Source: Tomitella biformata AHU 1821 (GTDB taxonomy: Bacteria > Actinomycetota > Actinomycetes > Mycobacteriales > Mycobacteriaceae). From it: a stretch of DNA of 64,000 bases. Within the stretch, counting starts at the first letter, position 1. Each line of letters starts with the position of its first letter. The stretch is from positions 1 through 64,000 of the forward strand of contig NZ_BAVQ01000036.1 of assembly GCF_000524475.1 (NCBI RefSeq). The letters run 5' to 3'. Both the position numbers and the translations under genes were made by a program. The notes below the pieces were generated by a model that was given only the letters and a program-made list of their open reading frames with translations, was not told the DNA's origin and did not search any database. This document shows, in pieces, positions 32,015 through 54,200 of the stretch.

Positions 32015-32105
32015 GCGCTCGGGCCAGGCCCGAGCGCCTTCAGCCCCCCGGGGCTGGACGCGACGACCCCCGCCCACCCCCCTTGGCGGGGGTTGTCCCA
32101 TGTTC
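32015..32105 (+). ncRNA. Probable 6C (B11)-type small RNA upstream of ssd
   Basis: In mycobacteria the 6C RNA B11 is encoded between ssd (Rv3660c) and Rv3661, on the ssd strand. The same place here has a -10-like TAGCAT (32004-32009) followed by three hairpins: GCGCTCGGGC/GCCCGAGCGC (32016-32038), CAGCC/GGCTG with a CCCCGG loop (32041-32056), and a 13-bp stem (32062-32074 with 32085-32097) whose loop contains six Cs. The C-rich loops and about 90-nt length fit 6C, which represses targets by pairing loops with G-rich ribosome sites. The first C hairpin is less ideal than the consensus. Confidence 0.55.
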
Positions 32106-48604: not shown

Positions 48605-49486
48605 ATGTCGGCTTCGGGTCGAATGTCCTGGATCGCAGCGGCGATGGTCGCGCTTGTGGCGAGCGCGCTCCTGTCGTGCAGCGCCAGCGAGTCGTCTGCG
48701 GATGATGCGGCGCTGGTCTCGAAGGTCACCTATGGCGATGATCCCGCCAACTATGGGATGTTGCACGTGCCCGCCGGCCTTGGCCCCTTTCCCGTCGTGG
48801 TCATGGTGCACGGCGGCGGTTGGATCCAGGAGCATGACCTGAGCTACTTCGAGCCGCTCTCGCAGGCGCTCGCGGCGGAGGGGGTGGCGGTGTGGAATAT
48901 CGAGTATCGCCGGGTGGGAGGCGCGGGCGGTTGGCCCGTGACCCTTGCCGACGCGGACGATGCGACCGACGCGCTCACCGGAGTGGTGCAGGTCGCTGCG
49001 AATGGGCGGCTGGACCTGGGCCGGGTGGTGGTCGCCGGACATTCGGCGGGTGGGCACCTGGCGGCGTGGATCGTGGGGCGGCACACGCTGCCGGCAGACG
49101 CTCCGGGCGGACAGCCCACGGTATTGGCGAAATCGGCGGTGGTGATGGCGGGGGTGTTCGATCCGGCGCTCGCAGTGCTCAACGGGCATGACAAGTTTGT
49201 GCGTGATCTGATCGGCGGCCCGCCGTCGGAGTATCCCGCGCGCTATGCGGTGGCGGCTCCCATCGCGCATTTACCGATCGGCACGAAGGTGATCGCGATG
49301 CATGGCACCGCCGACACCACGGTGGATCCGGTGCAGTCGTCCTCGTATGTTCAGGCGGCGCAGGAGTTTGGCGATCCCGCGGAGCTAGTGCTGATCGACG
49401 GTGCGGGGCACGGGGATTTCGGCAACGTCGACTCCGACGCGTGGCGAGAGGCCAAACGGGTGATCCTCAATGAGGCGTGGGGGTGA
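48605..49486 (+). CDS. Alpha/beta hydrolase lipoprotein (BD-FAE/esterase-like)
   Basis: The 293-aa protein has a lipoprotein signal with lipobox L-L-S-C (Cys near 25). The hydrolase domain shows the oxyanion H-G-G-G-W near 62, nucleophile elbow G-H-S-A-G-G near 145, an Asp in G-T-A-D-T-T near 240 and His in G-A-G-H-G-D near 270. It resembles BD-FAE-type feruloyl or acetyl esterases and kynurenine formamidase-like proteins, here surface exposed. The substrate is unknown. The last 20 bases overlap the convergent cyclase gene. The unusual K-V-T-Y-G-D start of the domain fits this subgroup. Confidence 0.82.
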   Translation: MSASGRMSWIAAAMVALVASALLSCSASESSADDAALVSKVTYGDDPANYGMLHVPAGLGPFPVVVMVHGGGWIQEHDLSYFEPLSQALAAEGVAVWNIEYRRVGGAGGWPVTLADADDATDALTGVVQVAANGRLDLGRVVVAGHSAGGHLAAWIVGRHTLPADAPGGQPTVLAKSAVVMAGVFDPALAVLNGHDKFVRDLIGGPPSEYPARYAVAAPIAHLPIGTKVIAMHGTADTTVDPVQSSSYVQAAQEFGDPAELVLIDGAGHGDFGNVDSDAWREAKRVILNEAWG

Positions 49487-50987
49487 GACCCGCCGGGCGG
49501 GCCAGCCGGGTGGGGGCGGTGCGGCCGCGCAGGGTCACGGATTCGCCGAGGACCCAATGCGCCTGCTCGGCGGGATCGGCCAGCGCGAGGACGGTCTCGG
49601 AGGCGAGGGTGACGCCGGGCTCGTCCTTCGCGAGTTCGGTGAGGCGGGCGGCCTCGTTCACCGGCGTGCCGATCACGGTGTATTCGAAGCGGTCCGCCGA
49701 GCCCACGTGTCCGGCGATGGCCGGGCCGGCCGAGATGCCGATACCGGCACCGGCTGGACCGACAATCTGGACCAGTAGCGGATGCAATTCCCGCGCCGCG
49801 GCTAGGGCGGCAGTGCAGGAATTTCCTCGGGGGACGGGCACGCCGAACACTGCGAGGGTGGCGTCGCCCTGGAATTTGTTGACGAAGCCGCCGTGTTTGT
49901 CGACGACGGTGATGACTGCCTCGAAGAACCGGTTGAGCAGGCGCACCACGTCCTGGGGGCTCGAGGAGTCCGTGATGGTGGTGGAGCCGACGAGATCCAC
50001 GAACAGCACCGCGACCTGCCGCTCCTCCCCGCCGAGGTTGGTGCCGTGCTGGAGCGCCTGGCGGGCGACGTCCTCGCCAACGTAGCGGCCGAAGAGGTCC
50101 TGCATCCGCTGCTGCTCGGCGAGGCTGCGGGTCATCGCGTTGAAGCCGACCTGGAGCTGGCCGAGCTCGGAGGTGTCGTACACCGTCACCTGCGCGCCTA
50201 GATCGCCGCGCTGGACCCGCTGGACGGCCTGCTGCAGCGAGTCGACGGGATCGCCGATGGCGCCGGAGGCCAGCCAGGTTGCGATCGCGCCGAAGGCCAG
50301 GGCCGCGACGGAAAGGGAGATGATCGCGGGCCGGATATCGGCCGGCTGGCCCACATTGCCGGCGATGCCGATGTCCGCCGCGACCAGGAGGATGCCGAGG
50401 ATCGGCAGGGCCGTGCCCAGTACCCACGCGGTGATGATGCGCGTGCGGACGGTGGGGGTGTAGACACGGGCGAGCACGGCGCCGTCGAGCACCTGGATGG
50501 TGATGGGACGCAGGATCCGTTCGGCTTCGAAATAGGTGAGGGTGGAGCTGGCGACGCCGCCGAGCAGCACGCAGAGCAAGGTCACCGCGCCTAGACCGGG
50601 GGACTCGTTCGCGGCGCGGACGACCACGACCGCCGCCGCAATCGTCCACACGCTGGCGGTCAGCAGCGTTTGGCGGATTGGCAGGCTGACGATGCGGCTA
50701 CGAACATGCTCGGGATGTCGCGCCGACTGTTGGCCGGGGTTCTCACGCTGCCAACGCGCGACCGGCTCGACCAGCCACAAGGTGCCCGCCATCAGCGCCA
50801 CCGCCGCGATGACAACGACGGCCACGAATACCTCTGCGGAGCGAGTGGCCAGCTCGTTGACGGCCGAGGAGAGCGCGAAGCGCATCAGCAGGTAGATGAA
50901 GATCGCGCCTGCCACGTTGGACAGCGCGGTGCCGGAGATTAGCGCGGCCCACACAGCCCTGTTCCGGAAGGGCACAGTCAGACGCAT
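49467..50987 (-). CDS. Membrane adenylate cyclase, class III (HAMP), copy 1
   Basis: The 506-aa protein has about six N-terminal membrane segments (residues 12-265), a HAMP linker (G-D-P-V-D-S-L-Q-Q-A-V near 270-285) and a class III cyclase domain. Metal Asp residues lie in F-V-D-L-V-G-S near 335 and G-D-A near 383; the purine-specifying Lys is in N-K-F-Q-G-D, and the transition-state Asn/Arg are in V-N-E-A-A-R-L. All key residues are present, so it should make cAMP. It resembles Rv3645. A close paralogue lies upstream on the same strand, 55 nt away. Confidence 0.9.
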   Translation of the reverse strand: MRLTVPFRNRAVWAALISGTALSNVAGAIFIYLLMRFALSSAVNELATRSAEVFVAVVVIAAVALMAGTLWLVEPVARWQRENPGQQSARHPEHVRSRIVSLPIRQTLLTASVWTIAAAVVVVRAANESPGLGAVTLLCVLLGGVASSTLTYFEAERILRPITIQVLDGAVLARVYTPTVRTRIITAWVLGTALPILGILLVAADIGIAGNVGQPADIRPAIISLSVAALAFGAIATWLASGAIGDPVDSLQQAVQRVQRGDLGAQVTVYDTSELGQLQVGFNAMTRSLAEQQRMQDLFGRYVGEDVARQALQHGTNLGGEERQVAVLFVDLVGSTTITDSSSPQDVVRLLNRFFEAVITVVDKHGGFVNKFQGDATLAVFGVPVPRGNSCTAALAAARELHPLLVQIVGPAGAGIGISAGPAIAGHVGSADRFEYTVIGTPVNEAARLTELAKDEPGVTLASETVLALADPAEQAHWVLGESVTLRGRTAPTRLARPAGLTPTPH

Positions 50988-51042
50988 GGGCTAAAACTAT
51001 CGTGCCGGGCGGGCGAGCCGGCCGGTACGCCACATATCTGTC

Positions 51043-52542
51043 CTAACAGGTGGGGCGGCCGAGCCGGGTCTCCGCGCGTCGGCCCCTGAGCAAGACCGTC
51101 TCGCCGAGGACCCAGTGGCTGGGCTCCGGGGCCCGGGCGTCCTCGACGGCACGGGCCGAGGCGAGGACGGCGCCGGGCTCATTCTTCGCCAGCTCGGTCA
51201 GGCGGGCGGCCTCGTTCACGGGGTCGCCGATGACGGTGAACTCGAATCGCGCGGCAGCCCCGACGTGCCCGGCGATGGCGATGCCGGCGGAGACCCCGAT
51301 GCCGAACTCGCCCTCGCCCACCACGATGTCGAGGCGGTGGCGTAGCTCGCGGGCCGCGGCCAGAGCGGCCCCGGGGGCGTCCGGATGTTCCAGGGGCGCG
51401 CCGAAGATGGCGAGGGCAGCGTCGCCCTGGAACTTGTTGACGAAGCCCCCGTGGTGGTTGACGGTCTCGACGATCTCGCGGAAGAACTCGTTGAGCAGTA
51501 TCACCACGACCTCGGGCCCGACGGTGGCGGCGAGCCGGGTCGATCCGATGAGGTCGACGAACAGCACCGCCACATAGCGCTCGGCGCCGCCCAGTTCGGT
51601 CCCGTGGGCGAGGGCCCGGCGTGCGACGTCCTCGCCGACGTAGCGGCCGAAGAGGTCGCGCAGACGCTGGCGCTCCTCAAGCCCGGTGAGCAGACTGTTG
51701 AAGCCGGCCTGGAGGAGGCCGATCTCGCCGCCGTCGTAGATGGTCACCTGGGTGTTGAGATCGCCGCCCTGGACCTTGCGCTGGGCCTCGCGAAGCTGGC
51801 GGATGGGGTCGCCGATAGTGCTGCCGATCAGAGTGAACGAGATGGCGCCGACGACGAGGGTGATGACACAGACGGCGAGGACGACGTCGAGCACCCTCTC
51901 GGAGTCGCTCGGCAGGATGCCCAGGGACAGCCCGGCGACCATCAAGGCGGTGCCGAAGATGGGGATGCCGGTGCAGGTGACCCAGGTCAGCAGAATGCGG
52001 CCCGAGACGCCGGGCGCGTTGGTCTGCTCCATGACGCCGTAGCTGAGGGCCTCGGCCGCGACGGGGCGCAGGATCCGCTCGGCCTGCAGATAGCCGAACG
52101 CGCTGGTGGTGATCGCGCCGAGCGCGCCGGCCACGGCGATGGTCAGGGCCCCGCCACCGAGGGTGTTGACGTTGATCAGTGTGATGAGCGCGACGCCGAC
52201 CGACCACAGCGCCAGGTGCAGGATTGCGTGGTATATCGGGATGCGCAGTGCCCGGCGCCGCACCTTGTGGGCATTCCCAACCTTGTCCCGCTGCCAGCGG
52301 AGCACCGGGAAGACAAGGTAGATGCCGCCGATCCCGCCGATCACGAGGGCGAACGCCAGGTAGCCGAAGAACAGGCCAGCGGTGGCGGGGGTGAAGCTGC
52401 TGGGGATGGTGATGGGGCTGTCGGGGATGAGCATCTTCATGCACACGAATAGGGCGAGCGCGCCGACGATGTTCGCGAGCAACATGGTGAAGGCATAGAT
52501 CGGCCAGCGCGTTCCGAGCAGCCAGCGAGCCAATTTCCACAT
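51043..52542 (-). CDS. Membrane adenylate cyclase, class III (HAMP), copy 2
   Basis: The 499-aa paralogue of the downstream cyclase has six membrane segments, HAMP (G-D-P-I-R-Q-L-R-E-A-Q near 255) and a cyclase domain with F-V-D-L-I-G-S, N-K-F-Q-G-D and V-N-E-A-A-R-L; all metal, substrate and transition-state residues are kept. The two proteins differ mostly in the membrane part, suggesting different inputs (lipid or ion sensing). ATG 52542 is preferred to a GTG three codons upstream. The two genes probably form one transcript. It is divergent from holB. Confidence 0.9.
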   Translation of the reverse strand: MWKLARWLLGTRWPIYAFTMLLANIVGALALFVCMKMLIPDSPITIPSSFTPATAGLFFGYLAFALVIGGIGGIYLVFPVLRWQRDKVGNAHKVRRRALRIPIYHAILHLALWSVGVALITLINVNTLGGGALTIAVAGALGAITTSAFGYLQAERILRPVAAEALSYGVMEQTNAPGVSGRILLTWVTCTGIPIFGTALMVAGLSLGILPSDSERVLDVVLAVCVITLVVGAISFTLIGSTIGDPIRQLREAQRKVQGGDLNTQVTIYDGGEIGLLQAGFNSLLTGLEERQRLRDLFGRYVGEDVARRALAHGTELGGAERYVAVLFVDLIGSTRLAATVGPEVVVILLNEFFREIVETVNHHGGFVNKFQGDAALAIFGAPLEHPDAPGAALAAARELRHRLDIVVGEGEFGIGVSAGIAIAGHVGAAARFEFTVIGDPVNEAARLTELAKNEPGAVLASARAVEDARAPEPSHWVLGETVLLRGRRAETRLGRPTC

Positions 52543-52634
52543 GCGACGCACGGATGTAACCGTAGTCGGCCCGAGCCTGCGGCGGCACTGTCCGCGCAGA
52601 CTGCTGTCGGGGGTTACGACTACGCTCGCTGGTT

Positions 52635-53884: not shown

Positions 53885-53960
53885 GCCGCCTTAGCTCAGT
53901 CGGTAGAGCGTCTCACTCGTAATGAGAAGGTCGACGGTTCGATTCCGTCAGGCGGCTCCA
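53885..53960 (+). tRNA. tRNA-Thr (anticodon CGT)
   Basis: Full cloverleaf: acceptor GCCGCCT/AGGCGGC, D-arm with GCTCAGTCGGTAGAGC, anticodon stem TCTCA/TGAGA with loop CTCGTAA (anticodon CGT at 53918-53920), and T-arm with GTTCGATTC. Discriminator U (53957); CCA is encoded at 53958-53960. Confidence 0.97.
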
Positions 53961-53964
53961 TAAG

Positions 53965-54000
53965 GTCCGGCCCCTCCAGTAAGAGGGGCCGGACTTTTTT
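53965..54000 (+). terminator. Intrinsic terminator of tRNA-Thr
   Basis: GTCCGGCCCCTC (53965-53976) pairs perfectly with GAGGGGCCGGAC (53983-53994), loop CAGTAA, followed by TTTTTT. A textbook Rho-independent terminator. Confidence 0.95.
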
Positions 54001-54071
54001 GCGAAAATATTGGCGTTAAGTCGTTCAATATTAAATTCGCACTATCGTCCGATACCTGTTAGCGTTGTGTC

Positions 54072-54200
54072 CAGCGGCGGTCGGTGCCTACCCCCCCTGG
54101 TGCGCGCCGCTTTTGGCTCTGTCGGCCACCCCCCCGGCCGCAGAGTTACTTCCCGCCCCGCACTCCACCCCCCCCCGGAGAGCGGGGCGGGCCCCTTTTT
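54072..54200 (+). ncRNA. Candidate small RNA with three poly-C-loop hairpins (6C-like)
   Basis: Three successive hairpins have loops that are runs of C. In the first, the stem AGCGGCG/CGCCGCT (54073-54079 with 54105-54111) leads to a loop with seven Cs (54091-54097). In the second, CTCTG-CGGCC pairs with GGCCG-CAGAG (54117-54127 with 54136-54145), loop A plus seven Cs. In the third, CCCGCCCCGC/GCGGGGCGGG (54152-54161 with 54182-54191) encloses CTCC/GGAG, loop A plus nine Cs, then CCCCTTTTT. A -10-like TAGCGT (54060-54065) with TTCGCA 18 nt before it predicts a start near 54072. No protein gene lies here. It follows the 6C RNA logic, with three rather than two C loops. Confidence 0.6.
54152..54200 (+). 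terminator. Terminator of the poly-C-loop RNA
   Basis: The 10-bp GC stem of the third hairpin is followed by CCCCTTTTTG. Upstream the only preceding gene, tRNA-Thr, already has its own terminator at 53965-54000. This second terminator therefore implies a separate transcript starting between them. Confidence 0.75.

Follow-up and report, generated by a model that had tools for sequence, protein, structure and literature searches.

Small RNAs (sRNAs) with C loops belong to the best understood regulators of this kind in actinobacteria. In the known members of the 6C/B11 group, the loops bind to G-rich ribosome sites, and mycobacterial secretion and virulence traits are influenced by 6C/B11. In Mycobacterium abscessus, B11/6C represses an eccB homologue that carries six G residues in its 5′ untranslated region (UTR); this repression persists as long as one of the two C loops remains and is abolished when both are lost (PMC10470900). 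In Xanthomonas, sX13 uses three C-rich loops to repress mRNAs that carry G-rich motifs close to the start (PMC3771888). Here, we describe a three-loop RNA from Tomitella biformata AHU 1821, for which a draft genome has been available since 2014 (PMC3924374). It is located in a stretch of 64,000 nucleotides (positions 1 to 64,000 of contig NZ_BAVQ01000036.1, termed the window herein) and is a real, conserved variant of the 6C-type sRNAs: its structure, its C loops, its genomic position, and a promoter-like element are conserved, and its sequence-structure scores suggest kinship with 6C. Our main reading, to which we assign a probability of roughly three in four, is that it is an independent trans-acting sRNA of the 6C type, about 128 nucleotides (nt) long, in which each of the three hairpins ends in a C-tipped loop; its transcription, its targets, and its mode of action are predictions drawn from closely related precedents. 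Within the literature searched, the three-loop variant has apparently not been described previously.

Three C runs are located on the plus strand at positions 54091 to 54097 (7 C), 54129 to 54135 (7 C), and 54168 to 54176 (9 C), each in the loop of a hairpin. Hairpin 1 (54073 to 54111, plus strand) carries the loop UACCCCCCCU (54089 to 54098), hairpin 2 (54114 to 54148, plus strand) the loop ACCCCCCC (54128 to 54135), and hairpin 3 (54152 to 54191, plus strand) the loop ACCCCCCCCC (54167 to 54176), in agreement with a preliminary description of this DNA, which had proposed hairpins with loops of 7, 7, and 9 C residues between 54072 and 54200. These are the only runs of at least seven C on the plus strand of the window (the minus strand has one), and three such runs within 100 bases were obtained in 0 of 400 simulated strands from a Markov model matching the dinucleotide make-up of the window. 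The predicted structure of the RNA (−70.8 kcal/mol; z = −4.4) contains all three hairpins, each with its C run as the loop.

The three-hairpin RNA lies directly behind a tRNA-Thr(CGT) gene in all five Tomitella genomes of our set, namely, the genome of the window (G000) and four relatives (G001 to G004), which include T. cavernea JCM 18542 and a metagenome assembly that is 81% complete (G001). A DNA search of 61 genomes matched the stretch only in the four other Tomitella genomes, the searched plasmid and phage collections did not match it, and the holB/tRNA-Thr locus of 25 other genera contained no such hairpins and no orthologue. When a covariance model was built from the four relatives, leaving out the window copy, it found this copy with 56.7 bits (E value of 9.8e-9 in the window) and exactly one locus per genome in the five Tomitella genomes. 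Each of the relatives' RNAs folds into three C-loop hairpins (z-scores of −6.1 to −10.2), and a C run is kept in every loop of all five species, with run lengths of 7/7/9 in the window and of 7/7/6, 8/7/6, 7/7/6, and 6/6/5 (the last in G001) in the relatives. Two-sided changes were found at 10 stem pairs (2 in hairpin 1, 6 in hairpin 2, and 2 in hairpin 3), and 95.3% of the alignment cells were paired (100% in hairpin 1); either value was reached by 0 of 500 shuffles, with the reservations that the alignment was fitted to the structure, so that the pair counts lean towards it, and that only about three independent lineages underlie the covariation, three of the five RNAs being nearly identical. 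Controls in which the structure was slid along the alignment were only 40 to 48% paired. This alignment was model-based; MAFFT misplaced hairpin 3 of the window owing to its longer loop. Compensatory stem changes with retained C loops, which the preliminary description had expected of a genuine RNA and which generally mark an independent RNA gene, are therefore present in the genus.

A genuine 6C RNA (Rfam RF01066; 50.9 bits, with a gathering score of 47) is encoded as a separate gene at positions 32033 to 32101 of the plus strand, 22 kb upstream from the three-loop RNA, and canonical 6C RNAs were also found in G002 to G004 (64.7 to 66.9 bits). Against the same Rfam model, the three-loop copies of G002 to G004 (loci L035 to L037) reached 42.4 to 45.5 bits, the G001 copy 24.7 bits, and the window copy 22.9 bits, all below the gathering score. 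Because of this score, we do not file the three-loop RNA under RF01066, and the 6C scan suggested in the preliminary description places the window RNA outside the family. The loops themselves are 6C-like, in that hairpins 2 and 3 of the window, and also hairpin 1, form the 6C pattern of adjacent hairpins with at least six C per loop, as do hairpins 1 to 3 in G002 to G004 (the G001 loops hold 6, 6, and 5 C); the described 6C pattern has exactly two C-loop hairpins, whereas there are three in all five Tomitella species, as there are at some other 6C-like loci. In the reverse direction, the three-loop model ranked true 6C loci right after its own members (E values of 1e-6 to 1e-2 in a 75-kb set), which suggests kinship with 6C, although these matches may be due in part to C-rich composition. 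Of the two options left by the preliminary description, an unusual variant or a new family, only the former holds: the RNA is an unusual 6C-type variant, and a new family is too strong a claim, because its relatives come as close to 6C as 45.5 bits and because three-C-loop 6C-like RNAs exist in other actinobacteria.

This closeness allows a second reading, which we consider possible, if on balance improbable: the RNA could be an extra 6C copy, a duplication paralogue that acquired one more hairpin by chance and has the same function, without being a functional variant. Additional 6C copies have been reported from mycobacteria (PMC9569102), two of the three hairpins account for the scores of 42 to 45.5 bits against 6C in the relatives, and the canonical 6C gene lies 19 to 22 kb away on the same strand. 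Many canonical 6C loci, moreover, have a hairpin just upstream, which usually has no C loop. Against this reading, three C loops are kept in five of five Tomitella species. The low score of the window copy (22.9 bits against 47) and a locus of its own, with its own conserved promoter-like element, likewise argue for a variant in its own right. At the 6C gene of the window, a strong hairpin without a C loop (GCGCTCGGGCCAGGCCCGAGCGC; positions 32021 to 32060) is located directly 5′ of the 6C RNA and overlaps its first stem, and equivalents are present at the other Tomitella 6C loci. In the 81% complete G001 assembly, no canonical 6C was found above the cutoff, and the stretch in which it was expected (L130, G001:C72:1-12000) contained no C run longer than five; this assembly carries the three-loop RNA, and the missing canonical 6C may reflect either a real loss or an assembly gap.

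The three-loop RNA is probably a transcription unit of its own, as judged from the sequence surrounding it and because the gene downstream differs between the Tomitella genomes. The preceding tRNA-Thr(CGT) gene (positions 53885 to 53960, plus strand; detected by ARAGORN and Rfam) is followed by an intrinsic terminator at 53964 to 54000 on the same strand, a perfect G/C stem of about 12 bp with T6, so that the separate terminator assumed in the preliminary description can be recognized, and an equivalent stem is likewise found 3′ of tRNA-Thr in G002 to G004. Between this terminator and hairpin 1 lies a putative promoter element (54036 to 54065, plus strand; TTCGCA, an 18-base spacer, and TAGCGT), suggested by conservation: the −10-like TAGCGT (54060 to 54065) is conserved and ends 7 bases 5′ of the first stem, and a −35-like TTSGCR or CTCGCG is located 18 bases 5′ of TAGCNT, with the spacing kept among the five Tomitella species. 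Counted back from hairpin 1, eight of the nine positions of TGTTAGCNT are invariant across the five species, compared to 0 of 30 at positions −60 to −31 relative to the −10 element. From the −10-like element, the RNA is predicted to start at about 54071 to 54073, which is consistent with the 5′ end near 54072 given in the preliminary description. At the other end, the tail CCCCUUUUU (54192 to 54200, plus strand), which aligns to the tail of the 6C consensus, is the probable 3′ end. The U tract noted in the preliminary description is present (54196 to 54200); it is, however, parted from the third stem by CCCC and therefore does not make a classical intrinsic terminator. Instead, the 3′ end looks like that of 6C, its CCCCUUUU tail resembling the CCCUU that closes the 6C consensus. 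A terminator pattern scan listed none in the region, a silence that says little because the same scan also missed the obvious tRNA-Thr terminator.

The same features bear on the notion that the hairpins are a terminator-like series that insulates the tRNA gene from the downstream genes, with no role for an RNA product. Strong intergenic G/C hairpins followed by a U run are what such an insulator would look like; yet the tRNA-Thr gene already has its own terminator, a conserved −10-like element separates this terminator from hairpin 1, and the C runs kept in all three loops are not needed for termination, making this explanation distinctly unlikely. Elsewhere in the window, the minus strand encodes two adjacent related membrane proteins at 49467 to 52551, with C-terminal halves that look cyclase-like from their sequence.

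Still less probable is a cis role of the hairpins as a 5′ leader or attenuator for csbD, the gene to which the preliminary description had drawn attention. csbD starts 110 bases 3′ of the RNA on the same strand and has an AGGAGG site, but this neighbor is not conserved, an rmlA-like gene being found at this place in G001 and a gene on the opposite strand in G002 to G004. The predicted pairing of the loops with the csbD site is ordinary as well (−6.0 to −7.5 kcal/mol, compared to a background mean near −6.5 kcal/mol), with 20 to 24 of the 49 starts in the window pairing as well as the csbD start does. We therefore rejected a cis role for csbD, and a special link to this gene did not hold up. 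The idea that the region encodes a small protein, or that its C runs arose by chance in a GC-rich genome, can be dismissed almost entirely: several short open frames run across the three-hairpin region, but loop lengths vary by a single C with the stems kept (C8 in loop 1 of G003, C7 in the near-identical G002), which would break any frame, the stems covary, and the triple C7 was absent from the 400 simulated strands.

Candidate targets of the three-loop RNA were sought as G runs in front of start codons. The pattern G6-N3-9-ATG occurs 67 to 83 times per near-complete Tomitella genome, compared to 21 to 41 times for a reversed control; 41 of 80 such sites (67 of the 68 from the T. biformata genome and 13 from T. 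cavernea) open frames of at least 60 codons, and some are clearly no real starts. G7-N-ATG was found at seven sites in the T. biformata genome, two of which resemble real gene starts. Two genes have G tracts at their starts that are kept between species. The first is eccB (Pfam T7SS_ESX1_EccB; loci L274, L280, and L281), which carries an identical GGGGGGTGCCATG in T. biformata, G002, and G003; a search for eccB in G001 and G004 gave no match. The second is a GmrSD_C/HNH gene (L244 to L246 and L248), the probable start of which is preceded by tracts of 7, 6, 5, and 7 G in G000, G002, G003, and G004, respectively; in four further genera that we examined, the GmrSD_C gene had no such G tract. The window RNA contains CACCCCCC in its loops 2 and 3, which matches GGGGGGUG of eccB over 8 bp, and the predicted pairing of the loops with eccB (−16.6 to −19.0 kcal/mol) is strong in a circular way, as the site was picked for its G run. 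The same circularity applies to all sites found by G-run search, for which only conservation between species is independent evidence, and a conserved G run at a start can simply be a ribosome site. The loops of canonical 6C are predicted to pair with eccB equally well, and the canonical 6C of the same cell could bind to the same sites. From these data, eccB and the GmrSD_C/HNH gene appear to be the best candidate targets of the three-loop RNA.

According to our main reading of an independent trans-acting sRNA, transcription would begin near 54072 and end near 54200, and rigid GC stems would hold out the C runs as open loops. These loops would form 6 to 9 G-C pairs with G tracts at or beside the ribosome site of target mRNAs, among them eccB (type VII secretion) and the GmrSD_C/HNH-domain gene, and the pairing would block translation, as with mycobacterial B11/6C and the three-loop sX13 of Xanthomonas. 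The presence of three loops could provide redundancy or allow several contacts at once. A more specific proposal, that a genus-specific three-loop sRNA arose within the 6C lineage and, alongside canonical 6C, regulates G-tract genes, including eccB, in a multivalent manner, is speculative, and we regard it as rather doubtful. If it were true, the C-loop sRNAs of some actinobacteria would have increased in number and acquired extra loops, creating a small paralogous regulon. A natural three-loop relative beside canonical 6C makes the effect of the number and length of C loops testable, and candidate G-tract targets kept between species add to its usefulness for such tests. The Rfam 6C model also under-calls three-loop variants.

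Searches at the family, order, and phylum levels with the new models returned only weak matches, of which L041, L089, and L090 are 6C-like RNAs; L040, L042, L087, and L091 were rejected, as they look like protein-coding DNA or other hairpins. The T. biformata genome contains a further locus with two C-loop hairpins (C6 and C7; L097, G000:C90:151465-151533, minus strand) that scores 37.5 bits against 6C and has a promoter-like TTGACA-16-TAACGT just 5′. Paired hairpins with C-rich loops that are weakly 6C-like (26 to 29 bits) were also observed in G002 (L098, G002:C1:3547769) and G004 (L099, G004:C71:10563), and the genus may thus hold several C-loop RNAs.

Among the described systems, the three-loop RNA resembles sX13 of Xanthomonas (RF02232) in having three stable stems with apical C-rich loops. 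sX13 has loops of only 4 to 5 C, an unstructured 5′ region, and a polA locus in Xanthomonas, and because the window RNA scores just 14 and 13.5 bits against its model (gathering score of 50), the likeness is one of design and not of family. Scr3202 of Streptomyces (RF02833), the top family in a permissive scan (23.7 bits; gathering score of 52), likewise has hairpins with C-rich loops, two in number and with different stems. With 6C/B11, the RNA shares its occurrence in actinobacteria, consecutive GC-rich hairpins, loops of C6 to C8, and a CCCUU-like tail; it differs from 6C/B11 in having three C-tipped hairpins instead of two, a score below gathering, and its own locus behind tRNA-Thr. A third C-loop hairpin upstream was also found at three other actinobacterial 6C-like loci, with runs of C6/C7/C6 (L131, genome G050), C8/C6/C8 (L132, G289), and C5/C7/C6 (L133, G633). 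L131 seems to be the main 6C gene of its genome, because it scores as a full 6C (66.9 bits) and holB lies 31 kb distant on the same strand. These loci share three successive C-tipped hairpins with the Tomitella RNA and differ from it in their genomic places; a third C loop is thus a variation on the 6C design that recurs, with the Tomitella RNA as a separate and conserved instance.
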